Part shown: positions 859-43,573 of the stretch, one piece after another
How the letters are laid out: every line of letters starts with the position of its first letter
How positions within the stretch are numbered: position 1 is the first letter of the stretch
DNA from: a virus
Reading direction: 5' to 3' (one strand)
DNA: 43,644 bases
Virus record (IMG/VR): IMGVR_UViG_3300021401_000015
Coordinates: 1 to 43,644 of that record
Program-made: the position numbers and the translations under genes
The notes under the pieces: generated by a model
The model's input: the letters and a program-made list of their open reading frames with translations, nothing else
Database searches by the model: none
Told to the model about the DNA's origin: nothing

Positions 859-867
859 TGTAGTTAT
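859..867 (-). repeat. dispersed 9-mer ATAACTACA
   Basis: Exact copy on the minus strand, in the gap before the DUF932 gene where a -10 box would be expected. Confidence 0.85.
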
Positions 868-2666: not shown

Positions 2667-2675
2667 TGTAGTTAT
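2667..2675 (-). repeat. dispersed 9-mer ATAACTACA
   Basis: Exact copy on the minus strand, three bases before leader hairpin copy 4 and about 18 bases after a TTGAGT (2644-2649) that resembles a -35 box. Confidence 0.85.
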
Positions 2676-2992: not shown

Positions 2993-3001
2993 ATAACTAC
3001 A
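2993..3001 (+). repeat. dispersed 9-mer ATAACTACA
   Basis: Exact copy lying between the AAAGGA ribosome site and the GTG start at 3002. Confidence 0.85.
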
Positions 3002-3637: not shown

Positions 3638-3945
3638 TGGATTACCGGGAGGGGATGCAGGTACTACGGGCCGCGCGTCTCCATGCTCCTTCAATCGTTC
3701 GCCTGGGCCGGGAGTATCACGTTTTCAGTCGGACCGAACTTATTTCCTCCGGCGTTAGCGTCTATGACGCTCTCGAACGGGGCGGTTTTTTGGTGGCGGA
3801 GAATGCGCCAACTATGATTTTCGCTGCGCATAACTACACGGTTCTGCATGGCCCTGTACGGGTCGCGCTGACTGAATCTAAAACAATGGCAAAGCGTATT
3901 GCAAACGCTCTTAACGAGTACATTCCTGGGGATAGAAAATACTGA
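3637..3945 (+). CDS. hypothetical protein, 102 aa
   Basis: Unrecognised 102-residue protein whose ATG overlaps the previous stop codon (TGATG), so it is probably made by translational coupling. No membrane segment or known motif is seen. It carries one exact copy of the dispersed 9-mer, read there as His-Asn-Tyr-Thr, a reading unlike most other coding copies. Confidence 0.75.
   Translation: MDYREGMQVLRAARLHAPSIVRLGREYHVFSRTELISSGVSVYDALERGGFLVAENAPTMIFAAHNYTVLHGPVRVALTESKTMAKRIANALNEYIPGDRKY
3830..3838 (+). repeat. dispersed 9-mer ATAACTACA
   Basis: Exact copy inside a coding region, in the reading frame that gives Asn-Tyr. Confidence 0.8.
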
Positions 3946-5652: not shown

Positions 5653-5661
5653 TGCTAGAAT
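5653..5661 (+). promoter_or_regulatory. extended -10 promoter of the small rightward unit
   Basis: TG at 5653-5654, one base, then TAGAAT (5656-5661) make an extended -10 box that does not need a good -35, and none is seen. The dispersed 9-mer (5660-5668) overlaps the -10 box and the expected start site, the geometry of a repressor operator. Confidence 0.55.
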
Positions 5662-5668
5662 AACTACA
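5660..5668 (+). repeat. dispersed 9-mer ATAACTACA overlapping a promoter
   Basis: Exact copy starting inside the -10 box TAGAAT. This is the clearest case in the window of the word placed as an operator. Confidence 0.85.
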
Positions 5669-8582: not shown

Positions 8583-8728
8583 CGGCCTCCCTTGTGCGCG
8601 GTCATCTCGTGAAACGCCATCCATCTCCAGCGGTTCCACGGCCTCACGTCGCGGGGTGGCCGTGCGTCACAGCGAGGGCATTGACACGCTACCCCGATGT
8701 GGTTGCCGTATTTGCGTGCGGTATACAA
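8579..8728 (-). CDS. possible small CxC/CxxC protein, 49 aa
   Basis: This frame is needed to fill the gap between the zinc-finger gene and the next one, but it has no ATG in a sensible place. The TTG at 8728 gives 49 residues with CQCPRCDARP near the N-terminus, a likely zinc site, and an end overlapping the next ATG. The ATG at 8926 would overlap the upstream gene by 260 bases and is unlikely. The start is uncertain. Confidence 0.4.
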   Translation of the reverse strand: MYTARKYGNHIGVACQCPRCDARPPRDVRPWNRWRWMAFHEMTAHKGGR

Positions 8729-9233
8729 GCTCTGCGAACCGGGCGGCAAACATGCGTTCAGGAATGTCGTACTGAGTCGCCATGCTGCGGCAAATTTCGG
8801 TGAATCTGCCGAGGGTAATGGCGAGGGCGACCTCAAGGGCGCGGTCACTAGCTGCAACGCTGGCTTCTTCGGCATGGGCGTGGTGTCCATTCTGGCTAAC
8901 AGGGATGGCTTCGGTGATTTTGGCAAGTTGGCTCCTCTTGGTGTCGGTGCGTTTCGGTTTGTGTTTCCTGGCTATGTGGTTTTTGAGTCCACCTACCCAC
9001 GACGCTACAAAGTCGCACTCCGGGCAGGGGAACTTTCCCTTGGTACGGTTGGGCCAAGTGCTGAGGTCCCGACCGTTGATGGCCTTCTGGTGCTGCTTCC
9101 GTTTGGCGACGGACGATCTTCCGGTCCCCACATATCCGTGCGCGAAGCGGCGATGGGTGGCGAGTCCTTTGGCTGTCGGGTAGGGTGCATGGTCGCAGTC
9201 GGGGCATTGGTGGTTGGCTTTCGTGGTCGTCAA
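8667..9233 (-). CDS. two C2H2 zinc-finger protein
   Basis: A 188-residue protein with two C2H2-type fingers. The first is CPDCDHAPYPTAKGLATHRRFAH (Cys10/13, His near 27-32) and the second CPECDFVASWVGGLKNHIARKH (about 70-91). These can bind DNA or RNA. The C-terminal half is helical (AEEASVAASDRALEVALAITLGRFTEICRSMA). C2H2 fingers are uncommon in bacterial proteins but do occur in phages. The gene is coupled to its neighbours by overlaps. Confidence 0.8.
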   Translation of the reverse strand: MTTTKANHQCPDCDHAPYPTAKGLATHRRFAHGYVGTGRSSVAKRKQHQKAINGRDLSTWPNRTKGKFPCPECDFVASWVGGLKNHIARKHKPKRTDTKRSQLAKITEAIPVSQNGHHAHAEEASVAASDRALEVALAITLGRFTEICRSMATQYDIPERMFAARFAELVYRTQIRQPHRGSVSMPSL

Positions 9234-9550
9234 TCGTTCTCCTTTTTGGCGTTGCGTTTTTGCGCGTATTCCTGACCCATGCGGAAAGCCTCTTCCGCTG
9301 ATGGGTGTTGTCGTCCGAAGATTGGGTGTTGCGTGTCGAATAACTCCATGATGCGGTCGGCCTGTTCGTGCGAAAAATATCCGGTGACGTAGCCAATGCT
9401 TTCTAACAATCTCGCGGTGGCCTGTTCGTTGGTGATTTTATAGAACGCGCTTGCTTCTGCGGCCTCTTCTTTCACGAGGGCGGCGGCTTGCTCCTTTGTA
9501 GTTATCTTGCTGTCCACCACAAGGTTTATGATCTGCCCCATGCTTCTCAT
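9230..9550 (-). CDS. hypothetical helical protein, 106 aa
   Basis: A 106-residue charged, Ala/Glu-rich helical protein (KEQAAALVKEEAAEASAFYKITNEQATARLLESIGYV). No known family. It contains one exact copy of the dispersed 9-mer, read here as Ile-Thr-Thr. Coupled to both neighbours. Confidence 0.75.
   Translation of the reverse strand: MRSMGQIINLVVDSKITTKEQAAALVKEEAAEASAFYKITNEQATARLLESIGYVTGYFSHEQADRIMELFDTQHPIFGRQHPSAEEAFRMGQEYAQKRNAKKEND
9497..9505 (-). repeat. dispersed 9-mer ATAACTACA
   Basis: Exact copy in a coding region, read in frame as Ile-Thr-Thr. Confidence 0.8.
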
Positions 9551-12392: not shown

Positions 12393-12596
12393 TTACTTGT
12401 GCTCCTCTAATCTGGCCACGCGGGTATCTACTCCGTGGATGGTGGTCAGCAGTGTAGTTATCTGGTTGTTGAAATTCTCATAGTGACGGTCAACCTTGTC
12501 GCTCAACTTGTCCAGTTTTGAGTTATTGGAAAGCCATGCGAGGATGACGAGGATTGAGGGGATGCCGATGGTGAGGTATAGCTGCTGGTTGGTCAA
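12393..12596 (-). CDS. small membrane/coiled-coil protein, 67 aa
   Basis: A 67-residue protein with an N-terminal membrane helix (LYLTIGIPSILVILAWL, about 6-22), then a coiled coil ending RVARLEE. It has the same plan as the next protein upstream in the operon, with similar IP-T/S-I-L/V-x-I-x-x-I-L-x-N and V-x-x-R-x-x-x-LE elements, so the two look like tandem duplicates. The topology fits small holins or anti-holins but also many phage proteins of unknown role. Confidence 0.75.
   Translation of the reverse strand: MTNQQLYLTIGIPSILVILAWLSNNSKLDKLSDKVDRHYENFNNQITTLLTTIHGVDTRVARLEEHK
12453..12461 (-). repeat. dispersed 9-mer ATAACTACA
   Basis: Exact copy in a coding region, read as Ile-Thr-Thr. 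Confidence 0.8.
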
Positions 12597-12826
12597 TTCG
12601 TTCCCTCTCTCTTGCTGTCTTCGCGGTCGCGCTCCAAAGTGGAGATGCGTCCCTCATTGTTGACGTGGCGGTCAACGAAGTGATTGAACAGTGATCGCAT
12701 CTCGGTAATGTCTGCGCGTACTTCGGTGCGGAGAGAATTGACCGCGCTGCCGTTGAGCAGAATCCCGATGATGGCCACGATTGTTGGGATTGAGACGGCG
12801 AGTAAAAGCTGGCCGAACGTAATCAT
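12593..12826 (-). CDS. small membrane/coiled-coil protein, 77 aa
   Basis: A 77-residue protein with an N-terminal membrane helix (LLLAVSIPTIVAIIGILL, about 7-24) and a coiled coil with RISTLERDRED near the end. It overlaps the next gene by four bases and looks like its duplicate. Membrane anchoring with a cytoplasmic or periplasmic coil is all that can be inferred. Confidence 0.75.
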   Translation of the reverse strand: MITFGQLLLAVSIPTIVAIIGILLNGSAVNSLRTEVRADITEMRSLFNHFVDRHVNNEGRISTLERDREDSKREGTN

Positions 12827-13038
12827 CGCGCACCTGCCTTCTTTTTGGTCGCGGTGCGTCTGGCCCCGTTGGTGCGGGGTTCGGAGTGCGGGTTATTGAG
12901 GGAGAGATAGAAGTCCACGATTTTATTGAGCATTGAAGTCCGGTCGCGGTGGTCGGCTGCGGCCATCTCGTCAATGATTTTTACCGTGGCAGACGGGCAG
13001 AAGAAGTTGACCTTTGTTTTGTCCATATCATCTACCAT
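12823..13038 (-). CDS. ribbon-helix-helix-like DNA-binding protein
   Basis: About 71 residues. The core KTKVNFFCPSATVKIIDEMAAADHRDRTSMLNKIVDFYLSL (about 8-47) has the strand-helix-helix pattern of Arc/CopG-type regulators: a short strand, a helix, a turn, and a second helix. The C-terminus is basic (NGARRTATKKKAGAR). The start could be 13038 (MVDDMDKT) or 13026 (MDKT); neither has a strong ribosome site, and the reading from 13098 runs into the terminator. It is the first gene after a leftward terminator, so it probably has its own promoter. Candidate regulator or plasmid-maintenance protein. Confidence 0.7.
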   Translation of the reverse strand: MVDDMDKTKVNFFCPSATVKIIDEMAAADHRDRTSMLNKIVDFYLSLNNPHSEPRTNGARRTATKKKAGAR

Positions 13039-13070
13039 ACTCTGTTGGATTCCGTAATGTCTAGGGGGTT

Positions 13071-13113
13071 TAAATAAAAAATGCCCGGAGGGGGCCAACT
13101 GCCTCTCCGGGCC
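13071..13113 (-). terminator. rho-independent terminator of the late operon
   Basis: On the minus strand GCCCGGAG (13112-13105) pairs with CTCCGGGC (13090-13083) and is followed by ATTTTTTATTT. It ends the leftward structural operon, after the small coiled-coil gene at 13170. Confidence 0.8.
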
Positions 13114-15762: not shown

Positions 15763-16443
15763 TTAAATTGGCCGGTAGTAGGTTGCGGGACCAATCGGCA
15801 AGAGCGGTCCGTTGTTGGCAATGGCGATAAAGGTCTGGACGGTCATGCTGCTCGGGGTCGGGTCAACCGGCGTTGCGTTCAAGCACATCGGCGGCCATGT
15901 GAATGTCCACCCTCCAGGACTGCCCTGCGTGATGAGGAAGGTGTAGAGGTTCCCCTGCACAATTCCGCTCATTGTGGATGAGGTCACGTCACCCATCAGG
16001 TTGAACCCCCAAGCTGTGTACTGGTCGCCGGGGAAGTTCGGGGTCGGGCTGAACGGCGGCGAGACGATTTTCAACTGGTTGATGATGAGCGGCGGCAACG
16101 GCGGCATCGGCTGTGAGGGGTCGAAGGGTTCCGTCGCGTCGAGGTCATAGTCGTTGTCACCCAGGAAGACGTAGGCGTTGACCTGCACCACGTCGCCGTT
16201 CGCGTCGAGTACGGTGATGGTGTAGTAGGTCCCGGCTGGCTGAATCTGGTCGTTACCGGCTACCTCGGCCTCGAAGCTGCCGTCAGGGTCGGCGTCGATC
16301 TGTAGCGATGTCACCCTGGCCATGAGCGAGGACCCCTGCACACGCGGGACCTGCGGCCCATATCCGCATAGCGCGATAACTACACTGCCCTCCTCCGGCG
16401 CGTCTTCGATAACTCCTGTAAGGGTCCCGCTAATTGTCGCCAT
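15763..16443 (-). CDS. virion-associated two-domain protein, 226 aa
   Basis: A 226-residue protein. The N-terminal domain (1-105) is an immunoglobulin/transthyretin-like beta fold by appearance (GSFEAEVAGNDQIQPAGTYYTITVLDANGDVVQVNAYVF). A Pro-rich linker (PMPPLPPL) leads to a C-terminal domain shared with the following gene. Such architecture is usual for tail appendage proteins. Carries one exact 9-mer copy. Confidence 0.7.
   Translation of the reverse strand: MATISGTLTGVIEDAPEEGSVVIALCGYGPQVPRVQGSSLMARVTSLQIDADPDGSFEAEVAGNDQIQPAGTYYTITVLDANGDVVQVNAYVFLGDNDYDLDATEPFDPSQPMPPLPPLIINQLKIVSPPFSPTPNFPGDQYTAWGFNLMGDVTSSTMSGIVQGNLYTFLITQGSPGGWTFTWPPMCLNATPVDPTPSSMTVQTFIAIANNGPLLPIGPATYYRPI
16376..16384 (+). 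repeat. dispersed 9-mer ATAACTACA
   Basis: Exact copy in a leftward coding region, read there as Val-Val-Ile. Confidence 0.8.
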
Positions 16444-17126: not shown

Positions 17127-17827
17127 GGCCTTCCCTTCGTCTTGCGAAACTCCTCAATCTGTTCCATGTAAAGTTTGCTGGCCTCGTTCTGCGCCACTGG
17201 CCCGAAGGCCCGGTCTACCTCCTCCTCGGTCACAAGCCCTTCCTGGATCAGCCGGAGGACCGCGGTGCGCCATCCCCGGTATTTCTCAAAGGTCGGCACG
17301 TCGTATTCGTTGAAGCGCATAATGCTCCACTCCGGCCCCAGTGGGTATTGCATATACGTTATGTACTGCGCGGTGTATTCGCCTTTGCGGTTGACCCATC
17401 CGCTGATTCCCACGCGGTCTTTGATAACTACATCGTGCAGCCAGAAGCGGGAGTTGTTGCGGGTGCGCTGGGCCGGGACGGTAAGGCCGGTCGCATGGTC
17501 GATGTCCCACACCCACACCACGGACGCCTCGATGCTGCAATCCACTCCGGCCTTTTGCAGTTTGCGGAAGACGGCGTGAGGGTGAAGGATATTGACCAAC
17601 CGCATCTCTTCGTTCTCTTTGCCCATCCAACGCTCCTGTCCCTTCCATCGCTGCTTGGCGGAAGCGCGGTAGTTGTCCTCCCATAGTTTTTGTTCGGCCT
17701 CGATAAGCTCCTCGCTGCTTGTGTTCGTGTACGGCAACGGTTCCGCGACTACCGGCGTCGGTAGCTCCTCGTCATAACTACATTCGACCCGCTTGAGATT
17801 GGAACGTACTTCACCGGCCTCTGGCAT
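17123..17827 (-). CDS. hypothetical structural-operon protein, 234 aa
   Basis: A 234-residue protein with a charged N-terminal part and Trp/Tyr-rich centre (WVWDIDHATGLTVPAQRTRNNSRFWLHDVV). The C-terminus ends in a helical LYMEQIEEFRKTKG. Lying between the internal virion proteins and the lysis-like genes, it is probably a virion or assembly protein. It carries two exact 9-mers in two different reading frames (Val-Val-Ile and Cys-Ser-Tyr). Confidence 0.65.
   Translation of the reverse strand: MPEAGEVRSNLKRVECSYDEELPTPVVAEPLPYTNTSSEELIEAEQKLWEDNYRASAKQRWKGQERWMGKENEEMRLVNILHPHAVFRKLQKAGVDCSIEASVVWVWDIDHATGLTVPAQRTRNNSRFWLHDVVIKDRVGISGWVNRKGEYTAQYITYMQYPLGPEWSIMRFNEYDVPTFEKYRGWRTAVLRLIQEGLVTEEEVDRAFGPVAQNEASKLYMEQIEEFRKTKGRP
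17424..17432 (+). repeat. dispersed 9-mer ATAACTACA
   Basis: Exact copy, read by the leftward gene as Val-Val-Ile. Confidence 0.8.
17774..17782 (+). repeat. dispersed 9-mer ATAACTACA
   Basis: Exact copy, read by the leftward gene as Cys-Ser-Tyr, a different frame from the copy 350 bases away in the same gene. Confidence 0.8.
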
Positions 17828-26690: not shown

Positions 26691-27704
26691 CTACCTCCAA
26701 CCCCATCCCCATCGGTAGGGATACGGCCCTTGGTCTTGCACGTAGTTGGGTGACATGACCCCGGTGTCGGGATAGAAGCCCTTGGCTTCGTCCTCGCGGT
26801 CGCCCTGTCGAGCGGCGGCTGCTACGGCGTCAAGCCACACTCGGCGCATCGGCTCGAAGCGGTTGAGAACGGCGGGGTTCGAGGAGTAGCGGTGGGCGTA
26901 GGCGATAAAGCCGTCAACGAACCATTTGGAATACTCGTCTGGAATCGGTTCGATAAACTCGGAGAGTTCCACGAAGCGCGGCGGTGCCTTCATCTGCGCG
27001 AAGGTGCGAATCAGCCACACGTTTCCGCCATAGGGCGGTCGCGGCGTGAAGCGGAAGCCCTGGGCGTTCGGGTCTGCCACCGTCCACTGGCAAGTGCCGT
27101 CCTGAATAACTACACCCACAGGGTAGTTGTCCGGTGCATCGGGCGGCGGGGGCGGCGCGACCGGAGGGACTAGGCCGGTCACACCGAACTTCGTCAGTAC
27201 CAGAATGTTCCAGTCGGCGTCATAGATGTTCGTCGGCGGATTGTTGTTGACGGCGTTCTGGCCGATGGGATTGGTGTAGATTTTGCCCGGTCCCGGCCAC
27301 TGCGCATACTCAAGCAGATGGTTATAGAACCAGCAAAACTGGCCCGGAAACCCACCGATGGAGTTGTCAATCTCCAGGTCGCGGACGGCGGTGATCTTCC
27401 AAGACGGCGGCGGGACCTGCGTGTTGTTGATGTCGATGCGGACACCGTTTTCAAGCCACCCAAGGTCATAGATGTTGAGCGATGCGTAGTCCTGCTGAAT
27501 CGGGGTTAGGGTGTAGGGCGGTATCTTCATGCGGTTCCACTTCCACGGAAAACGCACACTGATAAGCTCCTGCATCACCGTGTTCGCGATGGTGAGCGCG
27601 GGTTGGTTCGCGTAGCCTCCGGTGTTCTTCAGGACCGGGGTGAGGTCGCCAATGACGGCAACCTCGTCCACGATTTCTTGAATCCTTACGTTGGAGTTCC
27701 CCAC
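26691..27704 (-). CDS. tail tubular A-like protein, copy 1
   Basis: A 337-residue protein, relative of the next gene. IQEIVDEVAVIGDLTPVLKNTGG starts it, then the shared FPWKWNR block and WLENGVRIDI. A Pro-rich insertion (PPVAPPPPPDAPDNYP) lies in the middle. The C-terminal helix region (KWFVDGFIAYAHRYSSNPAVLNRFEPMRRVWLDAVAAAARQGDRE) is typical of the family. Carries one exact 9-mer. Confidence 0.7.
   Translation of the reverse strand: MGNSNVRIQEIVDEVAVIGDLTPVLKNTGGYANQPALTIANTVMQELISVRFPWKWNRMKIPPYTLTPIQQDYASLNIYDLGWLENGVRIDINNTQVPPPSWKITAVRDLEIDNSIGGFPGQFCWFYNHLLEYAQWPGPGKIYTNPIGQNAVNNNPPTNIYDADWNILVLTKFGVTGLVPPVAPPPPPDAPDNYPVGVVIQDGTCQWTVADPNAQGFRFTPRPPYGGNVWLIRTFAQMKAPPRFVELSEFIEPIPDEYSKWFVDGFIAYAHRYSSNPAVLNRFEPMRRVWLDAVAAAARQGDREDEAKGFYPDTGVMSPNYVQDQGPYPYRWGWGWR
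27106..27114 (+). repeat. dispersed 9-mer ATAACTACA
   Basis: Exact copy, read by the leftward gene as Val-Val-Ile. Confidence 0.8.
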
Positions 27705-28593: not shown

Positions 28594-28602
28594 TGTAGTT
28601 AT
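28594..28602 (-). repeat. dispersed 9-mer ATAACTACA
   Basis: Exact copy in the gap between the capsid gene and the zinc/coiled-coil gene. A one-mismatch copy lies at 28326-28334. Confidence 0.85.
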
Positions 28603-28669: not shown

Positions 28670-29818
28670 CTAGGTGATGGCCGAGGCCGCGTCGGAGTAG
28701 CGGAGACGCATTACCGGGTCGGGTGGAAGGGTCGCGGTGTACATCGTGTTGTACGAAGCGAAACCTCCAATCATCCTGGACGGGTCATACCCGCTCGGCT
28801 CGGTCAATCGCCGCACCCACACTTGCAGGTTGCGCCAATCGCCGTCGCCAATCTGCGTGTTTTCCTTCGCGCCGAACGAGATGCCGATTACGGCGTCTTT
28901 TCCGACAACATAGGTGCGGAGTTTGGTGGGCGCGGTGCCGGTCTGCGTGACAAGGGTGGATTGATGGAAACGCGCTCCGCCCCAATCAATCACCGTTACT
29001 TCGTCGCCGTCCGGTGCCGGTAGCTCCCGCAACTTCTCCTGGCCCTCCGCCGTCCTCTTCAGAACGTCGGTGATGCCGTTCGGCTGCGTGGAGATGAGGA
29101 TGTCGCCCACGATCAACGGGTGGATGACTCCGGTGAAGCGGCCGTTTTCAAAGGGCAGGGCATTGACCGCAGACAACGATTGCACCATCGAAGTGATGTC
29201 CTGCGCGATGAGGCCGGTCGAGTCGATGGGAACGTGGATGACCGATGGGTCTACGACTGCTGCGCCGTCCGCCGTGTTCTGGACGATAAGGTTGATGACC
29301 TGGGCCATGCGGTAGGCCATCTGCACTCCCAACGCTTCAAGCGCGGGGTCGATGGCGGTTTGCAGGGCATAGGTCGAGATGTTCGCGTAGTCTGCATAGT
29401 TGCCGATTGTGCTTGTGTTCTGCACGACCGAAACCGTGAGGCCGGTCTGTATCGTGCCTTCCGGTGCCTGGGTCAGCGGCGGGGCCGGAAGGTTTTGATA
29501 CATGAAGAGCGCAAGTTTGTTACCTGCGTTCTCGTCCAGTGTGCGGCGAGACGTGCAGCGGACCCAGGGCGTCTCAGCTTTAAGGTTCTCGATGAAAACC
29601 TTGTCAAAACTGGTGACGACCGACTGCGGTAGGTTGGTGGTCAAGTTAGACGCTGGTGAAACCCCAACGGCCAACGCACCGTGGACGCGATAACGCGCCA
29701 CGTCTCCCGTCCAAAAGAAGAGTTGTCCGCCGACTGCGGCGGCAAACTCGATGAACGGAATAACTACATTTCGGCAAAACTGTCTGCCGCGCTCTGCGGC
29801 CCTTGAATTGTCTCGCAT
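28670..29818 (-). CDS. major capsid protein (N4 gp56-like family)
   Basis: A 382-residue protein. The block SNLTTNLPQSVVTSFDKVFIENLKAETPWVR with LALFMYQNLPAPPLTQAPEG (about 57-120) matches the N4-gp56-like major capsid family, as do the later ADYANIST and a C-terminal GYDPSRMIGGFASYNTMYTA. GGGGGA lies eight bases before the ATG at 29818. This start gives about 50 residues before the family core, a possible N-terminal extension. It lies after the scaffold-like gene, as expected. Confidence 0.8.
   Translation of the reverse strand: MRDNSRAAERGRQFCRNVVIPFIEFAAAVGGQLFFWTGDVARYRVHGALAVGVSPASNLTTNLPQSVVTSFDKVFIENLKAETPWVRCTSRRTLDENAGNKLALFMYQNLPAPPLTQAPEGTIQTGLTVSVVQNTSTIGNYADYANISTYALQTAIDPALEALGVQMAYRMAQVINLIVQNTADGAAVVDPSVIHVPIDSTGLIAQDITSMVQSLSAVNALPFENGRFTGVIHPLIVGDILISTQPNGITDVLKRTAEGQEKLRELPAPDGDEVTVIDWGGARFHQSTLVTQTGTAPTKLRTYVVGKDAVIGISFGAKENTQIGDGDWRNLQVWVRRLTEPSGYDPSRMIGGFASYNTMYTATLPPDPVMRLRYSDAASAIT
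29760..29768 (+). repeat. dispersed 9-mer ATAACTACA
   Basis: Exact copy near the capsid gene start, read as Val-Val-Ile. Confidence 0.8.
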
Positions 29819-31071: not shown

Positions 31072-31307
31072 TGCGGTTCCACCCTGCCTTTCGCGGTCGA
31101 TAGCATCCAGTGGATGTCCTCGGTGCTTCCGGTGCCGTAGTGCCGGAGGCCCACTCTGCAACTTTTGTTCGGTCCATAAAATTCGCGGGTAATAACTACA
31201 ACGTCACGCGGGGCAATCTCGCCGCATTCAATCTCGCGGACTAGGCTCCGCAGTTTTCCCGATACGTCATACCGTGTGCCTCGGTTGATGATGCGGAGCT
31301 TCGTCAT
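31068..31307 (-). CDS. small conserved phage protein, 79 aa
   Basis: A 79-residue protein, MTKLRIINRGTRYDVSGKLRSLVREIECGEIAPRDVVVITREF. It is beta/alpha by appearance and belongs to small hypothetical proteins seen beside portal genes. It overlaps both neighbours by four bases. It carries one exact 9-mer in the Val-Val-Ile frame. Confidence 0.7.
   Translation of the reverse strand: MTKLRIINRGTRYDVSGKLRSLVREIECGEIAPRDVVVITREFYGPNKSCRVGLRHYGTGSTEDIHWMLSTAKGRVEPQ
31192..31200 (+). repeat. dispersed 9-mer ATAACTACA
   Basis: Exact copy in a coding region, read as Val-Val-Ile. Confidence 0.8.
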
Positions 31308-31987: not shown

Positions 31988-34104
31988 CCGCCTCCTGTGG
32001 GTGCGTAGAACTGGCTGGCTTGCATCCCGCGCTCGTCGGCGGTGCGCTCGGCAAAGGCGGCGGCACGTTCGAGCGGCGATTGCACTAGGGTCTGGTGGGT
32101 GGTGTCGATGCTCTTGGCCGCGATGCGACCGGCGATTTTTTTGTCTTCAAGGTCCATGTCGTTCTGGTGTTTCTGCTGTAGCTCGGCGGCGGTCGATTGC
32201 GCCTTGATCGCGGCGGGGTTCTGCTGCATCATCATTTGCTTCTCTTGGTCGGTCATCGGAACAATGAGGTCGGCCCGGTTCTTCCACTCGCTCATATCGA
32301 GGACCATCTTCACCAGTTCCATGACGTTGACCTTGTAACCGACTTGGCTCATCTGTTGGACGAGTGCCTGGTTGCCAAAGACTTCTAGTAAAAATGGCAG
32401 TGCCTGGGCCATGCGGTTCCGGGCGGCGAGTTTTGTACCTGCCAAGGTTTCAAATTTGACGTTGGTCCGCATGAAATCGCCAAAGTCCACCACGAGGTCA
32501 GCCGTGCGCTCGCCCAGGATGTCGCGAATTTCCTGTATCGGCATCCGCTCTTTGACCATCTGCCAGAGGAAGTTGAGGAAGGGAAGGAACACCCCGTCAA
32601 CGAAGCGTTCGACCGGCGATTGCAAACGACCCGAGGAAGCGGCCTGGAGCATCCCCGCGCCTGTACCGGAGTGCCCCACACTGCTCCCCCGGCCTGGGAG
32701 GACCCCTTGAACAGTTGCTTGGTCTGCGCCGGTCGCGCCTTCGCTCGAACCGATGGCGGCTTGTATGGCCCTCCATGCGTCGGGCGGAGGGTTCGGCTGC
32801 GGCACGAGCGCGACGGCCTTGGTCGCGTCGGCCCCGTCCACCATGCGGATGCCACCCAGCCTTCGCCGCTGGTCCTGAGTCGGCACATTCGCTCCCCGCG
32901 CGATTGCATACTCAGGTTGGACGGCGAAGGCCAGGATATCGAGGATCGCGTTCATCATCCCCTGCTCGACGCGCTGGTCCGCGCCGGAGATGCGACCCAC
33001 ACCCATTCCATAGCCGGAGTTCTCGATGTCCCAATAGTTCGCACTCAGAAACGGCTTGTCCGGTAGTTTGTGTTTCCCGTTGCGAATAACGCATTTTTGT
33101 TGTAGCACCACACGGACCTGGGTCTTGTCGTACCACTCCAGGACCTGCATCGGCTTCTGTAGCGGGTCCTCGCTGAAGTCCTGGTCCGGCATCGCGGCAT
33201 GGTGGACGTTGGTGCTTGCCACCATAGCTTGCTCAAGCGAGTTCGCGGATTCGGTCTGCTCCTCGTCGGACATGAAGATGTGGCGGAGAACGTCGTCGGG
33301 CGGGATGTCGTAGTCGGGGTTCTCGCGGAGCTTCGTGAGGTCGTCATAGTTCAGGTAGTCCTCATAGACAATCCACTTTGCCTTCCATAGTTGGTTGGGG
33401 TTGCACCACTTGGGGTCTACAAACACCTGACCGATATTGCACTTCTCGAAGAAGGGCCGGTTGCGCGTCACTTCCACGTCCACGGCCTCAAACTCGTCTG
33501 ACTCCTCGGTGTAGATGGTCAGGGGCTTGCCAAAGGGCATGGGCACTTGCGGCGGTGCGCTCTTCCTGTGGTAGTGCGTCTCCACCGTCGTCTCCGTCAC
33601 CCATCCGATTTTGAAGATGACGGTGCCGGAGTTGACCATCGCCTGGATGCCATAACTACACTCTTGCTTGAAATTGATCTGGTCGAGGAGTTCGGAGACA
33701 AGCTCCGTCCATGCCCTCGTCGTGTCCTGATGGGTGTTGGGCCGGGGGCGAACCAGGAACGGGGTCGGGTCCGAAAAAACGGCCCCGGTGATTGCCGGGG
33801 CCAGAGAGTTCGTTTGTTTCGCCACTGTGAAGCGTGAGACGTTCGAGCGCGTGACGGTGGACCCCTCGAAGACGCTTAGGGTCCGCGGCGATTGGTAGAG
33901 TACGTCGCTCTCGGTCCATTGCAGGGGCCAACGGCGGTCATTGAGCCACGCGCTTGCCCTCTCATAGTCCTGTACTACGATGCTGATAGCGGCTTGGTCG
34001 GTGTACTTTGCAGCGATGGCGGGGTCGGGCGAGGTCTTGATGTCCCTGGGCAGCACTGGTCTGCTGGGATTACTGGTCAGCGGCAATGTTGCGCTTGCGG
34101 CCAT
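31984..34104 (-). CDS. portal protein
   Basis: A 706-residue protein, the right size for podophage portals. Features: IVVQDYERASAWLNDRRWPLQW at the start, a central GKHKLPDKPFLSANYWDIENSGYGMGVGRISGADQRVEQGMMNAILD (about 350-395), then GADATKAVALVPQPNPPPDAW, and a Gln/Met-rich helical C-terminus (QEKQMMMQQNPAAIKAQSTAAELQQKHQNDM). This arrangement is that of portals in N4/acidobacterial-type podophages. It stands between terminase and scaffold genes. It forms the dodecameric DNA channel at one capsid vertex. Confidence 0.8.
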   Translation of the reverse strand: MAASATLPLTSNPSRPVLPRDIKTSPDPAIAAKYTDQAAISIVVQDYERASAWLNDRRWPLQWTESDVLYQSPRTLSVFEGSTVTRSNVSRFTVAKQTNSLAPAITGAVFSDPTPFLVRPRPNTHQDTTRAWTELVSELLDQINFKQECSYGIQAMVNSGTVIFKIGWVTETTVETHYHRKSAPPQVPMPFGKPLTIYTEESDEFEAVDVEVTRNRPFFEKCNIGQVFVDPKWCNPNQLWKAKWIVYEDYLNYDDLTKLRENPDYDIPPDDVLRHIFMSDEEQTESANSLEQAMVASTNVHHAAMPDQDFSEDPLQKPMQVLEWYDKTQVRVVLQQKCVIRNGKHKLPDKPFLSANYWDIENSGYGMGVGRISGADQRVEQGMMNAILDILAFAVQPEYAIARGANVPTQDQRRRLGGIRMVDGADATKAVALVPQPNPPPDAWRAIQAAIGSSEGATGADQATVQGVLPGRGSSVGHSGTGAGMLQAASSGRLQSPVERFVDGVFLPFLNFLWQMVKERMPIQEIRDILGERTADLVVDFGDFMRTNVKFETLAGTKLAARNRMAQALPFLLEVFGNQALVQQMSQVGYKVNVMELVKMVLDMSEWKNRADLIVPMTDQEKQMMMQQNPAAIKAQSTAAELQQKHQNDMDLEDKKIAGRIAAKSIDTTHQTLVQSPLERAAAFAERTADERGMQASQFYAPTGGG
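33652..33660 (+). repeat. dispersed 9-mer ATAACTACA
   Basis: Exact copy in the portal gene, read as Cys-Ser-Tyr. Confidence 0.8.
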
Positions 34105-34511: not shown

Positions 34512-34520
34512 TGTAGTTAT
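34512..34520 (-). repeat. dispersed 9-mer ATAACTACA at a gene junction
   Basis: Exact copy between terminase stop and the next ATG, preceded by TAGAAT on the same strand. Confidence 0.85.
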
Positions 34521-36244
34521 TCTAACCCCGGCATCATCACTTCCAAACCAAGCTCGTTGAATAGCCTCTCCTCCACGCCGGGGACCTCTATTTCTTCCGG
34601 CTCCGGCTCCGAAGGCGTGTAGACACCGCGCCCATAAATCAGGTTGTACTTGTCCCTCTCGCGCATCATCTCCCACGCGAGGTCTTCGTCATCAAGCTCG
34701 GTCGCGGCGATGCTCACCGGCAAGTTGTCGGCAATCCGCGAGACTACATCGGGTAGTCCGTTGTCGTCGGTCATCCCGTATTGTACGAAGCCCTGAATCA
34801 GCGGCTTGGTCTTGAGGCCAGTCGAGAAGTAGAGCCGTGACGATGCCAGTAGCGGCTCGATGCTGCGGATGCGGGTATCGCGCTCTCCGCCGTCGCCCTG
34901 GAAGTCCACCCACGTTACGAAGATGTCCCAGCCGGTCGTCAGGCTGTAGTTATTGATCGCCGGTTGAATCAGACGCGCTCCCGGCGAGTCTTCGATTTCG
35001 ACGGTGTGCATTCCGTTGCGCCGCGCCGTGTCGTGAATCAGCTTCGCCAACACCGAAGGCTTGTAGTGGCCCTGTATCGTCTCGATGATGTACATGCGGT
35101 TGCGATGCATGAGGCCCACCGCGCCGGAGGTCATCAACCAGTTGAGGCTCCGGCACGGTAGTCGGAAGTGGATGAACCGCTGGCCCTCCATCGGTAGCTC
35201 GGCCTCCTCGGTCATCGCGGCAAGCATCTGCGCGTCGGTGAAGACAAGTTCTGCGGCCCCGTAGCTGTCCAATTGATATTGCGACATGAATGATTCAAAG
35301 TCGGCCTCATACTCCTCGCGCAAAAAGTCGTAGCTGAGGATGGTGGGGAAGAGAAGTTCGACTTCGTTTTCGGGCGGAAACCCGTTGGGGTCCAGTCGTT
35401 CGCCATTCAGCAGCCGAAGTGCCGGTTTGAATACCCGGTCGTAGCTCCCAGGCCGCGCCGTCAATACCTCGTCGCTGAAGGTGTCTCCCAAGCCGTAGGG
35501 GGTCCCGATCTTGATTTCGATGCCGGTGGGCTTCAGGATTTTCCGGGTGAGTTTGTAGGCTTTAGTGACGGCCACGCGGCCTTCAAATTTTTTGGAGTTG
35601 CGATTGGTATTGATGTCGTCGTACACCAGCACGTCGGGGTGCCATCCGGTCGTGTTCGAGTCAATCGAGTTCGCCCATATCATCGGCTCTACGATCTTGG
35701 GTTCGGTCTGCCGCAAAGGGCCGGTAAACTGGCCGGGGACCGGCTGCTTGATGGCGCACAATTCGGGGAAGAGTGCCTGGAAGAGTGTCGCCGGTCGGCG
35801 CGGCTCCTTGATGAAGAAGCTGGCAATCTGGTCCACAAAGGCGAAGGCCAGGTCTTTGCCGCCGCTCATAATCAGAATGGCGATGGTGAAGTAGTAGTGA
35901 AGGATGAGTTGGACACAGTAGGCGATGTCGAGTGTAGTTTTGTAGGTGTTGCGCGGGTAGAGAAGCGTTCGCCGTCGCTTGCGGCCTTTGTATAGCTCCT
36001 CGGTCGTCTGGTCGGGGTCTATCTCCGGAAAAAACTGGATGGCCTCATGGTGAACGTCCTCGGTGATGAGGCAATAGCCCAACGTGTAGCAGAGCGCGAG
36101 TAGGTTGGTCTTGCAGCATCGCCGTCCGTCCTCCTTCACATCCTCTTCGTGTAAAACTCGGTCAGTTAGCTCCGCTCTCCAGGCCGCATTGTTCGCACCC
36201 TCTTGGTAGGGGTCCCTCAATCGCCTCCAATTAAATCCGCTCAT
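34517..36244 (-). CDS. terL: terminase large subunit
   Basis: A 575-residue packaging motor and nuclease. The ATPase has a Walker A-like LYPRNTYKTTL (95-105; RNTYKTT in place of GxxxxGKT, as in many phage terminases) and Walker B VLVYDD (205-210), followed by INTNRNSKKFE. The C-terminal nuclease half contains GLMHRNRMYIIETIQGHY and TVEIEDSPGARL. It cuts concatemers and drives DNA into the prohead. No small terminase subunit is recognised, although a small upstream gene could serve. Its start codon touches the divergent HNH gene. Confidence 0.85.
   Translation of the reverse strand: MSGFNWRRLRDPYQEGANNAAWRAELTDRVLHEEDVKEDGRRCCKTNLLALCYTLGYCLITEDVHHEAIQFFPEIDPDQTTEELYKGRKRRRTLLYPRNTYKTTLDIAYCVQLILHYYFTIAILIMSGGKDLAFAFVDQIASFFIKEPRRPATLFQALFPELCAIKQPVPGQFTGPLRQTEPKIVEPMIWANSIDSNTTGWHPDVLVYDDINTNRNSKKFEGRVAVTKAYKLTRKILKPTGIEIKIGTPYGLGDTFSDEVLTARPGSYDRVFKPALRLLNGERLDPNGFPPENEVELLFPTILSYDFLREEYEADFESFMSQYQLDSYGAAELVFTDAQMLAAMTEEAELPMEGQRFIHFRLPCRSLNWLMTSGAVGLMHRNRMYIIETIQGHYKPSVLAKLIHDTARRNGMHTVEIEDSPGARLIQPAINNYSLTTGWDIFVTWVDFQGDGGERDTRIRSIEPLLASSRLYFSTGLKTKPLIQGFVQYGMTDDNGLPDVVSRIADNLPVSIAATELDDEDLAWEMMRERDKYNLIYGRGVYTPSEPEPEEIEVPGVEERLFNELGLEVMMPGLE
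34945..34953 (-). repeat. dispersed 9-mer ATAACTACA
   Basis: Exact copy in the terminase gene, read as Asn-Asn-Tyr. Confidence 0.8.
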
Positions 36245-37418: not shown

Positions 37419-37694
37419 TTACTGTCCCGCCATCGTGTTCATCTCCGCCTGGGAATCGTCCGGTTCGACTGGTCCCATGTGTTGCTGAACGTGCTGGGCG
37501 AGTTCGGCGGGGTTGGCGACGTTGTACTCGGCATCTCCGCTCTGGCCGTCGCTCGGGGGCTGGCCCTTGGAGTCGCGGAGTTCGTGTTTGGCGACATACC
37601 CGTTTTCGGTGCGCCGGATATTCATGCTGTGGGTGTGGAGTTTCTTACCTTTGCTGCTGAGGACCTTGGCTGCGCTGGCTGCTGGTGAGTCCAT
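37419..37694 (-). CDS. conserved phage protein, 91 aa
   Basis: A 91-residue protein, MDSPAASAAKVLSSKGKKLH then THSMNIRRTENGYVAKHEL and PAELAQHVQQHMG. I recognise this as a common small phage family of unknown function. The ATG at 37694 lies two bases after the previous stop and has GAAGGGTGG upstream. An exact 9-mer overlaps the start codon. Confidence 0.7.
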   Translation of the reverse strand: MDSPAASAAKVLSSKGKKLHTHSMNIRRTENGYVAKHELRDSKGQPPSDGQSGDAEYNVANPAELAQHVQQHMGPVEPDDSQAEMNTMAGQ

Positions 37695-37701
37695 AACTAC
37701 A
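37693..37701 (+). repeat. dispersed 9-mer ATAACTACA at a gene junction
   Basis: Exact copy overlapping the stop of one leftward gene and the start codon of the next. Confidence 0.85.
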
Positions 37702-38450: not shown

Positions 38451-38763
38451 CTCCCCTCCTGATGACCGTGGTGTTCTCCGCCCCGTCTTTGCCGTGGACC
38501 CACCTTCGGCCACGTTCGAGCCACTGAAGAAACTCCAGTGGTGGCCCCTGGGCCTTGATGTAGAGTTCCGGCGTGTCGGGTTCATAGGCGATAAGGGTGG
38601 AGAAGTTGAGCGGGAACATCGGCGGCGGGAGAATCCCGCCCTGGCTGATGGATTCGAGGGTGGCGGGGTCGCCAGTCTTCATGCGTTCAAGATTATCTGG
38701 TTCAATAACTACAACCAGCACACTCGAAAACATCTCTTTGATGTTAAGCATCGCTGCGACCAT
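38440..38763 (-). CDS. conserved phage protein, 107 aa
   Basis: A 107-residue protein starting MVAAMLNIKEMFSSVLVVVIEPDNLERMKTGDPATLES, with PPLEFLQWLERGRRWVHGKD near the C-terminus. I recognise it as a small phage family of unknown function. GGAGGAG precedes the ATG at 38763. One exact 9-mer lies in the Val-Val-Ile frame. Confidence 0.7.
   Translation of the reverse strand: MVAAMLNIKEMFSSVLVVVIEPDNLERMKTGDPATLESISQGGILPPPMFPLNFSTLIAYEPDTPELYIKAQGPPLEFLQWLERGRRWVHGKDGAENTTVIRRGDAH
38705..38713 (+). repeat. dispersed 9-mer ATAACTACA
   Basis: Exact copy in a coding region, read as Val-Val-Ile. Confidence 0.8.
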
Positions 38764-39016
38764 TCCGTCTCCTCCGCTTCAATTCCACTTCCAACTCGGC
38801 TCCAGTGAATAGCTCGTAGGCTCCGCGATAGTCGGCCACAACCGCAACCGCGCCCATCATCAAGCCACCTCCCACGCGCAAACATCCGTCTACTACCGCT
38901 AGAGCTAACGACGCTCTGTTGTGGGAAACTAGCTCTACCCGGCAAATACACCAGTCATCGTTCGTTCCCAACACCCGCACCCGTACAATGTCGCCGGTTT
39001 CCACATCGACACTCAT
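38744..39016 (-). CDS. hypothetical protein, 90 aa
   Basis: A 90-residue beta-rich protein, DVETGDIVRVRVLGTNDDWCICRVELVSHNRASLALAVVDG, resembling a small barrel domain. The C-terminus is basic (KRRRRNGRSD). Overlaps both neighbours; function unknown. Confidence 0.65.
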   Translation of the reverse strand: MSVDVETGDIVRVRVLGTNDDWCICRVELVSHNRASLALAVVDGCLRVGGGLMMGAVAVVADYRGAYELFTGAELEVELKRRRRNGRSDA

Positions 39017-39426
39017 TCCGCCTCGCTGTCAGACTCCACGTAGTCTCCTGCGCCGGTCAGACCAACGTCCGAAGGGCTTAGGCGGGTAGTCATGTTGGGT
39101 TTGGGCTTCGGGCCGCGCTTCTTCGGCGGGTTGGCTTTACGATACTCCCGTTCGGCAATCTCTTCCGGCGAAAGTTCCGCGTCGGGTGGTGGATTTTTTT
39201 CCTCGAACCTGCGCCAACGCAGGTATCGGGTGCGCTCGGCCAGTGACGCGGGGCGGCGGCAATACCGGCACTCTCGGGCGTCCTGTTTGCTGCGCCTCCA
39301 GTTCTTACGCCGGTCGCTGCACTCTTTCGAGCAAGTGATTGCGTGTTTGGGGCGGTCGGGGCCGATGACGTTGCCGCACATCACGCAATGGGGGGTTACA
39401 TCGGAAAAGTTGTCTACGCGGGGCAT
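39013..39426 (-). CDS. zinc-ribbon protein, 137 aa
   Basis: A 137-residue protein with two Cys clusters: CVMCGNVIGPDRPKHAITCSKECSDRRKNWRRSKQD (about 14-48) and CRYCRRPASLAERTRY. The first is a treble-clef or FCS-like zinc finger (Cys-x-x-Cys, Cys-x-x-x-Cys). A long basic, Pro-rich linker (PKKRGPKPKP, an AT-hook-like core) and an acidic tail follow. It likely binds nucleic acid. Coupled to rusA by overlap. Confidence 0.7.
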   Translation of the reverse strand: MPRVDNFSDVTPHCVMCGNVIGPDRPKHAITCSKECSDRRKNWRRSKQDARECRYCRRPASLAERTRYLRWRRFEEKNPPPDAELSPEEIAEREYRKANPPKKRGPKPKPNMTTRLSPSDVGLTGAGDYVESDSEAE

Positions 39427-39857
39427 TGTTCCTCGATTCTTTCAATTACAAACTCGGTCCGCGGGTTGGCGCGGTCGTTCTTGACTACATTTACGATCTG
39501 CTGGCCGATGAAGGCGTCGGAGTGGATGACTCCTGCGGCCTCAAGTCCGTCGAAGGCCACTTTTGCGCCGTTGTCGCTGTCGAGCCTCACGTTCGGGCCT
39601 AGCACCACGGTCATCTCCACGCGGTAGCGCACCTTGTCGCGCTCTTTCTGTGTCTCCGGGGCGACGGTGCGGCCCCTGGCATAGATGGCGACGGCCCACT
39701 TGTACGCTTTGGCCTCCGGGGTCAGCTTCATCCCTTTGCGGCTGCGGCGGCGTCCGGCCTTGTCCGTGTAGGTGAAGGCGCAGGGCACCTTGAAGTGGTT
39801 GACGCTCGGCGGCGTCAACCCCGGCACAGTGAACGCGACGATTTTTTCGATTGCCAT
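39414..39857 (-). CDS. rusA: RusA-like Holliday junction resolvase
   Basis: A 147-residue protein matching RusA. GLTPPSVNHF at the start, TPEAKAYK (46-53), and the catalytic block RLDSDNGAKVAFDGLEAAGVIHSDA (91-115). Asp93, Asp95, Lys99 and Asp114 keep the spacing of the E. coli RusA active site (Asp70, Asp72, Lys76, Asp91). It resolves branched DNA, needed before or during packaging. It is the first gene of the leftward arm, divergent from the ribbon-helix-helix gene. Confidence 0.85.
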   Translation of the reverse strand: MAIEKIVAFTVPGLTPPSVNHFKVPCAFTYTDKAGRRRSRKGMKLTPEAKAYKWAVAIYARGRTVAPETQKERDKVRYRVEMTVVLGPNVRLDSDNGAKVAFDGLEAAGVIHSDAFIGQQIVNVVKNDRANPRTEFVIERIEEQCPA

Positions 39858-39885
39858 CCTTCAATAATATAACTACACTGTGACT
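39858..39885. promoter_or_regulatory. divergent control region between the two arms
   Basis: A 28-base gap between divergent rusA and the ribbon-helix-helix gene. It is AT-rich (TAATAT at 39865-39870) and holds one exact 9-mer. TTGCCA (39851-39856), 17 bases, TACACT (39874-39879) is a possible rightward promoter; TATATT on the minus strand could serve rusA. Any protein on the 9-mer would affect both. Confidence 0.5.
39869..39877 (+). repeat. dispersed 9-mer ATAACTACA in the divergent gap
   Basis: Exact copy eight bases before the ATG of the ribbon-helix-helix protein; a natural autoregulatory operator position. Confidence 0.85.
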
Positions 39886-40134
39886 ATGGCTACTAAAAAA
39901 GTCGTTCATAATAGCACTTATGTTAAGGGGGTCGGTCGGCGGTCGAAGAAGAAAAAGGGCATCGTCGTCCAGTCAATCCGGCTCCTGGTGGTGGACAACA
40001 AACGTTTGCACGATGCAGCAAGGGAATCGGGCATTTCGTTCAACGGTTGGGCATCGAAAACCCTCGTTCGTGAGGCCGATAAGGTCCTCAAGCGCAAAGA
40101 GGCTGCAAAAATAAAGAAAGTGACGGAGGAGTAA
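39886..40134 (+). CDS. ribbon-helix-helix DNA-binding protein, 82 aa
   Basis: An 82-residue basic protein. A Lys/Arg-rich N-terminus is followed by strand SIRLLV (30-35), helix A NKRLHDAARESG (39-50), SFNGW turn and helix B ASKTLVREADKVLKRK (56-71), a clear Arc/CopG-type fold. It probably dimerises and puts its strand in the DNA major groove. Start ATG 39886; a GTG two codons earlier is possible. It heads the rightward arm right beside an exact 9-mer, so it is the best candidate to bind ATAACTACA and repress both arms. That link is inference. Confidence 0.75.
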   Translation: MATKKVVHNSTYVKGVGRRSKKKKGIVVQSIRLLVVDNKRLHDAARESGISFNGWASKTLVREADKVLKRKEAAKIKKVTEE

Positions 40135-41360: not shown

Positions 41361-41658
41361 AACGGCGCGGTTCGCGGACCCCGCCAACCCTAGCGCGATC
41401 CTATTCCGCGACCTGCGCGACGGGCGCGGCGTGTGGGTCTACCCGATGACCTTCACGTTCAAACTGGTGATCGGGCGGGTTGGCTCTCCCGTTTATGATA
41501 GCGACTGGTGCTATAAAGATTGCGCGAGTGTAGTTATTGCCTTTGCCGAATGGAATCCGCTCGAAACGGCGGAGCCGGAGGGCTGGGTACGTCATCCACG
41601 AACGGGCCGTCGCCGCTTTCCAGACGGCGACCCCGCAACCGAAGAAGTGAGGCTATGA
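41341..41658 (+). CDS. hypothetical protein, 105 aa
   Basis: A 105-residue beta-rich protein with GRGVWVYPMTFTFKLVIGRVG and SDWCYKDCASVVIAFAEWNP, a block I have seen in other phage genomes. It overlaps the previous gene by 20 bases and the next by four. One exact 9-mer lies in the Val-Val-Ile frame. Confidence 0.7.
   Translation: MYAETSETARFADPANPSAILFRDLRDGRGVWVYPMTFTFKLVIGRVGSPVYDSDWCYKDCASVVIAFAEWNPLETAEPEGWVRHPRTGRRRFPDGDPATEEVRL
41529..41537 (-). repeat. dispersed 9-mer ATAACTACA
   Basis: Exact copy, the last one before the RepA and origin region, which holds none. Confidence 0.8.
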
Positions 41659-41909
41659 TTCGCACACCTGAACAGTATTGGGAAACGCTTCTACGCGCTT
41701 TTCCCCCTGGCATACCAGATTCAAAGATAGTTGCCTTTCGCCGCACCTTTTTCAGCGGCATGAGCGCGATGGTTTCGCTTATGGCGGAACTACGAGAGTC
41801 ACCCTTGGGGGAGTCGGAAAAACAGGCTCTCTATCGGAGATTTGCCGAGTATATTCATCGAAATGACGGTCTTGAGGAGGATTCGAGGACGAATGGGCGC
41901 AATAACTGA
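41655..41909 (+). CDS. hypothetical helical protein, 84 aa
   Basis: An 84-residue protein starting MIRTPEQYWETLLRAFPPGI at the ATG 41655, which overlaps the previous TGA (ATGA). Helical throughout (VAFRRTFFSGMSAMVSLMAEL, EKQALYRRFAEYIHR). It overlaps repA by 17 bases, so repA translation may be coupled to it. Such coupling is common for plasmid rep genes. Confidence 0.7.
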   Translation: MIRTPEQYWETLLRAFPPGIPDSKIVAFRRTFFSGMSAMVSLMAELRESPLGESEKQALYRRFAEYIHRNDGLEEDSRTNGRNN

Positions 41910-42954
41910 AAAGGCGAAATCACCGTTCTCTCTTGGCGATGAAGCAATGGCCGAAATAATCGAACAAGTGTGGGGCCGCGATGTTCTCGATAATCCCCGC
42001 CTTGGTTTCAATCACCTGATTCAAACGTCGTGTTTTTTGCCGAGTAAAGACCCCGGCGAGATACCAATGTGGCAGCGCAAAGATGGCGGTCTGACAATGA
42101 CGATGACTCGGGGTCCCGCCATGAATCCGGTTACAAGGGAGGCGGAGCTACAGGGGTATCCTCATGGGCTGTGGCCGCGTCGGTTTCACAGCATCATCAA
42201 CGCTGAGATTTTGCGGAGCCGTTCACGAACGATCTACTGCGGTCGAGGTTTCTGCGAGTTTTTCAGGGATAAGATGTCTGTGCGGATGACGGGCGGGGCG
42301 AACGGTAATATCCGACACATGAAGAATCAGTTTTCGCGGCTATCGGCGGCGAATCTAGTGTTCTTCATGCACAACGACAAGCGGATTGTGATGCTGAGTC
42401 CAGCGCGGATGATTGAGGCAACGGATATGTGGCTGGACGGCGATGAGGAGCACTGGCCGTCATTTCTCCTAGCGTCACAAGCCTATTGTGACGACCTGTT
42501 TCAGAATGCCGTTCCCATCGACCTGCAAGCTGCTTCGCGCATCAAGGGGTCGATGGAATACGACTTCTACACTTGGGTCACTCGCCGCGTCTACAGCCTC
42601 GTCGTGAGCGGTCAGCGGAGCGTGGCGATCACCTGGGGGTCGCTGAAGTATGCGATGGGCTACAGCTACTCGCGACTAGACCATTTCCAGTCGGAAATTC
42701 GGGCCATCATTCGGCATCTGAAGGCCGAGGTCTACCGTGATCTGAATATCCGCGAGAGTCAAACGGGTTTGGTTCTCTACGCGGGGCCGCTGGCGGTTCC
42801 TGAGCGCAAACTGTGGGCTGGTTACACGGAGCCGAAGCAGATACCGATGTTCGCGGATGACCGCCGCTTCGATGACCCTTTTCCACAGGAGGAGGAGAGA
42901 AGGGTGGTAGTCAAAACCATCACCATCACAAAACGCCAAGTTGTTCAAAAATAA
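41893..42954 (+). CDS. repA: plasmid RepA replication initiator
   Basis: A 353-residue protein matching the plasmid RepA family (PF04796 type). Key blocks: YPHGLWPRRFHSIINAEILRSRSRTIYCGRGFCEFFRD (89-126), MTGGANGNIRHMKNQFSRLSAANLVF (132-157), PVPID-like AVPIDLQAASRIKGSMEYDFYTWVTRRVYSL (206-236), and ITWGSLKYAMGYSYSRLDHFQSEI (246-269). It binds iterons and opens the origin. I start at 41893 (MGAITEKAKS); the ATG 51 bases earlier would enlarge the overlap. Four iterons follow directly. In a phage genome it is strong evidence for plasmid-style replication. Confidence 0.85.
   Translation: MGAITEKAKSPFSLGDEAMAEIIEQVWGRDVLDNPRLGFNHLIQTSCFLPSKDPGEIPMWQRKDGGLTMTMTRGPAMNPVTREAELQGYPHGLWPRRFHSIINAEILRSRSRTIYCGRGFCEFFRDKMSVRMTGGANGNIRHMKNQFSRLSAANLVFFMHNDKRIVMLSPARMIEATDMWLDGDEEHWPSFLLASQAYCDDLFQNAVPIDLQAASRIKGSMEYDFYTWVTRRVYSLVVSGQRSVAITWGSLKYAMGYSYSRLDHFQSEIRAIIRHLKAEVYRDLNIRESQTGLVLYAGPLAVPERKLWAGYTEPKQIPMFADDRRFDDPFPQEEERRVVVKTITITKRQVVQK
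42879..42887 (+). promoter_or_regulatory. DnaA-box-like site
   Basis: TTTTCCACA, one mismatch from TTATCCACA, inside the 3' end of repA. Confidence 0.45.
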
Positions 42955-42962
42955 ACTGATAA

Positions 42963-42980
42963 TCACGCATAATCGCCGGG
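42963..42980 (+). repeat. iteron 1
   Basis: TCACGCATAATCGCCGGG. Lies 84 bases (start to start) before iteron 2. Confidence 0.85.
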
Positions 42981-43011
42981 ATAAGCCATCGAAGGTCGTC
43001 TCCTTCGGGGC

Positions 43012-43020
43012 TTTTCCACA
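43012..43020 (+). promoter_or_regulatory. DnaA-box-like site
   Basis: TTTTCCACA, one mismatch from the E. coli consensus, between iterons 1 and 2. Confidence 0.5.
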
Positions 43021-43046
43021 TAAAATCTGTGAAATCAATGACTTTT

Positions 43047-43064
43047 CCACGCATAATCGCCGGG
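43047..43064 (+). repeat. iteron 2
   Basis: CCACGCATAATCGCCGGG, 46 bases before iteron 3 (start to start); its left edge overlaps a third DnaA-like TTTTCCACG. Confidence 0.85.
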
Positions 43065-43092
43065 AACCAAAAATCAACCACTTGCAAGCGTT

Positions 43093-43110
43093 TCACGCAT
43101 AATCGCCGGG
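43093..43110 (+). repeat. iteron 3
   Basis: TCACGCATAATCGCCGGG, 22 bases before iteron 4, about two helix turns, so both lie on the same DNA face. Confidence 0.85.
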
Positions 43111-43114
43111 GAGT

Positions 43115-43132
43115 CCACGCATAATCGCCGGG
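43115..43132 (+). repeat. iteron 4
   Basis: CCACGCATAATCGCCGGG, last of the array. Confidence 0.85.
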
Positions 43133-43529: not shown

Positions 43530-43573
43530 CCGCACCTGAATCATTGGGGTGCAGTGCCACAAGTAATAAATAT

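Follow-up and report, generated by a model that had tools for sequence, protein, structure and literature searches.

The window analysed here is an entire virus record of 43,644 bp (57.7% GC) from a family of uncultured soil phages. In each genome of the family, about 12-21 copies of a nine-letter word, ATAACTACA, lie at scattered positions. A gene for a RusA-like Holliday junction resolvase (39414..39857, minus strand), the first gene of the leftward arm, and the gene for the 82-residue ribbon-helix-helix (RHH) protein RHH1 (39886..40134, plus strand) diverge from a 28-nt gap (39858-39885), which holds one exact copy of the word (39869..39877, plus strand) 8 nt from the RHH1 ATG. The gap, its copy of the word and the adjoining Arc/CopG-type gene had been described in a sequence-only reading of the same DNA, whose sequence and coordinate statements all hold. 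Relatives from public metagenomes were collected from IMG/VR by terminase search, giving 16 at 76-99% identity and then 37 down to 59%, nearly all of which were fetched. RHH1 used as a single query gave no matches among IMG/VR and GenBank phages, and a profile search with RHH1 recovered 10 loci.

Predicted promoters and repressor candidate at the arm divergence

The predicted promoters of RHH1 (39851..39879, plus strand; TTGCCA-17-TACACT) and of the rusA-like gene (39864..39892, minus strand; TAGCCA-17-TATTAT) overlap, each with a -10 element ending 6 nt before the ATG, and the word touches both -10 hexamers (39874-39879 on the plus strand and 39869-39864 on the minus strand). Judged by these consensus matches, the gap is a divergent control region with two overlapping outward promoters, apparently leaderless. 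In a scan of 59 gene families, covering 2-20 nt upstream of starts, strong sigma70-like consensus matches were found at 15 of 18 RHH1 starts, at 11 of 20 rusA starts, and at two starts elsewhere. With curated starts, 17 of 20 genomes have 6-8 nt between the end of the -10 element and the RHH1 ATG, the weaker of these matches being poor. Such closeness of the -10 element to the ATG predicts leaderless mRNAs; the lambda cI mRNA from the maintenance promoter is also leaderless. The conserved -35 box TTGACA coincides in part with the start of the rusA-like reading frame, and its conservation thus has two possible causes. Synteny is strict: wherever the locus was seen, in 20 genomes including wordless ones, RHH1 and the rusA-like gene stand head-to-head.

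In 9 of the 12 word-bearing genomes a copy of the word falls within the RHH1 core promoter (-35 to +1). These copies occupy several different positions and either orientation, so that the word has been retained there while moving; the exact word is absent from the gap in G010/G011 and in G017. The probability of so many matches within 37-bp segments by chance is below 1e-8, a rough estimate based on the genome-wide site density, even when this is tripled for AT-richness. With the gap as a divergent control region and a conserved word inside the RHH1 promoter, autoregulation of RHH1 is likely. To this extent the earlier proposal that RHH1 is a repressor acting through the word gains ground, and RHH1 is the best-placed candidate reader.

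RHH1 itself is, by its profile and structural matches, a genuine RHH protein. In the model an extended segment (27-33) is followed by two helices (35-48 and 52-81), the strand being unassigned in the monomer model, an arrangement that fits the N-terminal strand and two helices expected of the RHH (MetJ/Arc) superfamily. Its PDB matches are mostly RHH proteins (NikA, AtaR, KacA, MazE, MatP, CopG, PutA and Arc), with a best Z of 7.3 and a Foldseek E never below 0.088. The HicB profile matches 13 of 18 RHH1 orthologues (best E 0.0012), and the orthologue scans also returned TacA1 (1.4e-4) and NikA-like (8.9e-4) profiles; the RHH1 of the window alone matches HicB at E 0.025, which misses the Pfam cut-off. 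The ‘Arc/CopG-type’ call made earlier from the sequence was right, as these orthologue profile matches and RHH-dominated structural matches indicate. The N-terminal arm of RHH1 is basic, and its strand V-Q-S-I-R is invariant in all word-bearing genomes, the corresponding strands of wordless relatives being VTSLR, NQTIR, MQSVR, SYSIR and similar. Because the word-bearing genomes form one clade, the association between VQSIR and the word is suggestive only and possibly due to common descent.

Dispersal, conservation and selection of the word

The window contains 21 exact copies of ATAACTACA; dinucleotide-preserving shuffles contain 0.09 on average and at most 1. No 9-mer is more over-represented in the window, and the same holds for nearly all word-bearing relatives longer than 9 kb; in G013 the word ranks second, and G012 has just three copies. 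Altogether 184 sites, reducing to 75 non-redundant ones, give the extended consensus A-ATAACTACA-YT, which is asymmetric and not palindromic, and no second half-site was seen within 30 nt of ATAACTACA among these 75 sites. Besides the gap copy, several copies in the window lie ahead of genes, namely at 859..867 (minus strand; 66 nt ahead of a DUF932 gene), 2667..2675 (minus; 46 nt ahead of gene 2717), 28594..28602 (minus; 24 nt ahead of gene 28095-28574) and 2993..3001 (plus; abutting the start of gene 3002), and the copy at 5660..5668 (plus) is intergenic. Others lie inside genes, at 9497..9505 (minus; 49 nt into gene 9230-9550), 16376..16384 (plus; 63 nt in), 17424..17432 (plus), 17774..17782 (plus; 49 nt in), 29760..29768 (plus; 54 nt into the likely major capsid protein gene), 33652..33660 (plus; in the likely portal gene), 34945..34953 (minus; in the terminase gene), 37693..37701 (plus; 39 nt in) and 38705..38713 (plus; 54 nt in), and one at 34512..34520 (minus) overlaps the terminase stop codon. 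The remaining copies are at 3830..3838, 27106..27114 and 31192..31200 (plus) and at 12453..12461 and 41529..41537 (minus).

Two of the genic copies allow the codons at the word to be compared. In the terminase, AT-AAC-TAC-A is retained in 21 of 21 ATA-class genomes, in one of which the first codon has changed from AAT to GAT with the word intact, and wordless relatives have other codons or residues at this position. The position of the copy at 17774..17782 is kept in six of the seven aligned ATA-class genomes, where gene 17123-17827 reads TGT AGT TAT (Cys-Ser-Tyr); the seventh has TGC, which breaks the word, and Cys-Ser-Tyr at the word is absent outside the ATA class. This codon retention suggests that selection acts on the DNA word itself, at the nucleotide level, inside protein-coding sequence. 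The word forces codon and even amino-acid choice in the terminase and another late gene, making the constraint visible and testable.

The sites are also placed non-randomly with respect to genes. With gene starts taken from a curated map and homology transfer, and all permutations of the word's letters as a control, 48 of 119 non-redundant sites fall no more than 100 nt from a start (22.6% for the permuted words, p=1.1e-5), with a peak at -25 to 0 (22 sites against 5.5 expected); many sites nevertheless lie inside genes. Cruder codon-based gene calls, which missed known genes and gave no intergenic excess, were replaced by this map. Near starts the word runs in the same direction as the gene at 34 sites and in the opposite direction at 30, homologous sites being counted, and the site at gene 40762 is opposite in G020 and same in G021. 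This free orientation argues for a DNA-binding protein that reads the word and against an RNA-level or start-associated element or a promoter motif, both of which are disfavoured.

Every fetched member of the inner clade (terminase identity about 75% or more) has ATAACTACA or a shifted form of it, ATAACTACA occurring 12-19 times per near-complete genome in most members, and the shifted forms occur in three deeper branches. In G013 and G014 the word is GTARCTRCA; G014 lacks ATAACTACA and has 30 copies of RTARCTRCA (1.0 expected). The shifted word is also clear in G019 (19 against 1.04 expected), where it is a mixture led by GTAACTACA, and the words of G015 are mixed too. No such word was found in relatives with terminase identity of 68% or less; the distant G037 has instead a repeat of another kind, linked to promoters, and a dyad scan for degenerate words in the wordless G027, G030 and G034 found nothing comparable. 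The gap of G030 contains ATAACTGTA, two mismatches from the word and there only, which may be a chance similarity. The repeat of G037 comprises five copies of TGTAATACAATAGAATACA (L092:18316-19870 and L093:1192), most of them behind a TTGACA box and in one arm, and is a different promoter/operator set. A host protein could conceivably read the word, with the phages following the binding specificity of hosts that might differ between word classes. This seems very improbable, as the distribution of the word follows the phage clade, syntenic relatives lack it, and its link is to the promoter of a gene for a phage DNA-binding protein.

Candidate readers and a repression model

We infer that RHH1 reads the word and represses on binding it, and that the scattered copies influence transcription. 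In this model, the gap would be the master divergent control region of the family, its two overlapping sigma70-type promoters firing outward, one into the rusA-like arm and the other into the RHH/replication arm, to produce leaderless mRNAs. RHH1 bound to ATAACTACA across the -10 elements would repress its own promoter and probably that on the rusA side too. It would also bind about 12-20 further words, preferentially just before start codons, where it may act as a local roadblock or silencer whatever the orientation of the word. We give a slight preference to the view that RHH1, bound in the gap, represses both its own promoter and that of the rusA-like gene, with the dispersed copies serving as local blocks.

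Certain observations fit this model less well. The RHH1 gene is also present in eight relatives without a dispersed ATAACTACA-type word (G024, G025, G027, G028, G030, G031, G034 and G037), and its presence does not therefore predict word dispersal. In addition, the half-sites bound by RHH proteins are usually paired or palindromic, and the lack of a half-site beside an isolated, asymmetric word counts against RHH1 as the reader. A lone 9-bp site without symmetry suits a protein that binds as a monomer, and another phage protein may read the word, RHH1 being merely regulated through it. The candidates, all of them family-wide, are a treble-clef/HNH-like zinc-binding protein (39013..39426, minus strand), a second RHH protein, RHH2 (12823..13098, minus strand), and a C2H2 protein with two zinc fingers (8667..9233, minus strand). 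The neighbouring zinc-binding-like protein covaries with word class as closely as RHH1 does (72-84% in the ATA class and 52-60% in the GTA class), which qualifies the repressor role earlier assigned to RHH1. By contrast, RHH2 is disfavoured because its predicted contact strand differs among genomes that share the word (KTYAVHT in G006 against KxNFYCP, the word being unchanged). The C2H2 protein is likewise disfavoured, having one to four fingers regardless of the word; it has one finger in five ATA-class genomes and two in G000, with different recognition residues. The word sits in the RHH1 promoter and not specifically in those of the genes for the three other proteins, and we regard a reader among them as fairly unlikely.

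Replication module and comparison with known systems

The window encodes a plasmid-type RepA initiator (41842-42954, plus strand; RepA_C E 7.5e-11), followed at 42962-43136 by four CACGCATAATCGCCGGG iterons, which together represent what is, by sequence, a plasmid-like origin in a phage. RepA_C was found in 6 of 11 genomes tested, with adjoining iterons in several; in the iterons of G010, G014 and G030, CACGCATAA is kept and the right half is changed. The presence of this initiator raises the question of whether the word represents scattered iterons of RepA, an idea to which we give almost no credence. The RepA iterons are a different repeat, clustered just after repA, as opposed to the dispersed word; no RepA_C match was found in the word-bearing G006 and G017, which encode a different, HTH-like protein there; and RepA relatedness conflicts with the word classes (G000 at 41% to G014 and 28% to G010). 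RepA is therefore excluded as the reader, and the word is rejected as a RepA iteron.

The sequence-only reading also held that RHH1 maintains a silent state. No integrase, resolvase or ParA matches were found in 11 of the largest genomes, no prophage was found in 84,980 species genomes searched with terminase and capsid profiles, and a plasmid search by terminase found none; what speaks for such a state is the plasmid-type RepA with iterons, which hints at an extrachromosomal one. Repression through the word may keep a lysogen silent or may instead time a lytic programme. A possible extrachromosomal element, together with orientation-free sites in both arms and an RHH fold with MatP among its structural matches, might suit a word reader that condenses, pairs or segregates phage DNA in a MatP/matS-like or centromere-like manner, promoter repression being secondary. 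This seems improbable in view of the concentration of sites at -25 to 0 of genes, the lack of a ParA-type (AAA_31) gene in the 11 genomes, and the non-palindromic word, unlike matS. MatP of Enterobacteria resembles the present case in being an RHH-containing protein with dispersed sites, but it is a larger, host protein that organises a chromosome domain through palindromic sites, whereas ATAACTACA is asymmetric.

Mycobacteriophage stoperators provide the closest parallel to the repression model. The L5 and other cluster A genomes contain at least 20 dispersed, short, asymmetric sites, many of them in short spaces between genes, and the immunity repressor of L5 is a 183-residue monomeric HTH protein; stoperator orientation follows transcription and is needed for repression (PMC9283540, PMC6550527). 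As in cluster A, the sites here favour short intergenic spaces near gene starts (many being inside genes), the word occurs upstream of the candidate repressor's own gene (in 9/12 word-bearing genomes), and it varies among related phages. Unlike cluster A, there is no orientation bias, the candidate is an RHH protein with a 9-bp word and not an HTH repressor, and no sign of lysogeny was found (no integrase, resolvase or ParA match in 11 of the largest genomes). The system is thus best filed under phage dispersed-operator control, as stoperator-like but failing two defining features (orientation and the HTH repressor). Another precedent is the SPBRE repeat of SPbeta, which was found first by sequence and later shown to be the site of the phage master repressor MrpR at many promoters; unlike the case here, MrpR has a tyrosine-recombinase fold, and SPBRE is a 15-bp element in promoter regions (PMC10516654).

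RHH1 shares its fold and predicted autoregulation with Arc of P22, CopG, NikA and the HicB/TacA/AtaR antitoxins. Those repressors act on one or a few paired sites close by and are not known to use some 20 single words spread over a genome, and a literature search found no paper joining ‘stoperator’ and ‘ribbon-helix-helix’. A fuller reading, which we put forward tentatively and consider somewhat less probable than its being wrong, is that of an RHH-based, orientation-independent stoperator system. In it, an Arc/CopG-like repressor would silence a RepA/iteron phage via divergent leaderless promoters and about 20 single 9-bp words, which spread from an ancestral autoregulatory operator and have since split into immunity classes (ATAACTACA vs GTARCTRCA). 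A few phage groups are known to have genome-wide dispersed operators, and their repressors have HTH or recombinase folds. If true, an RHH case with free site orientation, and with relatives in which the gene is present and the scattered words are absent, would allow study of the spread of a single autoregulatory operator over a genome, and of shifts in operator specificity.

Several other features of the window were recorded. The finger number of the C2H2 protein orthologues, one to four, indicates rapid finger turnover. A stand-alone phage clamp-loader-like AAA ATPase is encoded at 185-829, and among the genes of the window none for a DNA polymerase was noticed. Independent relatives' contigs break at one shared position, between gene 43227 and the clamp-loader gene (43530-43644 and 1-184), suggesting natural genome ends there. 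Five plus-strand copies of GGGTGCAAACCCTCAAAC (at 145, 881, 1897, 2678 and 2944), each about 40-60 nt before the start of an early-arm gene, resemble start-associated elements of other phages, and were not found in the relatives checked. Genes 4461-4991 and 36244-36759 are related (29% identical) and by inspection probably of HNH type; one runs against the direction of its arm, and the pair are possibly homing genes.
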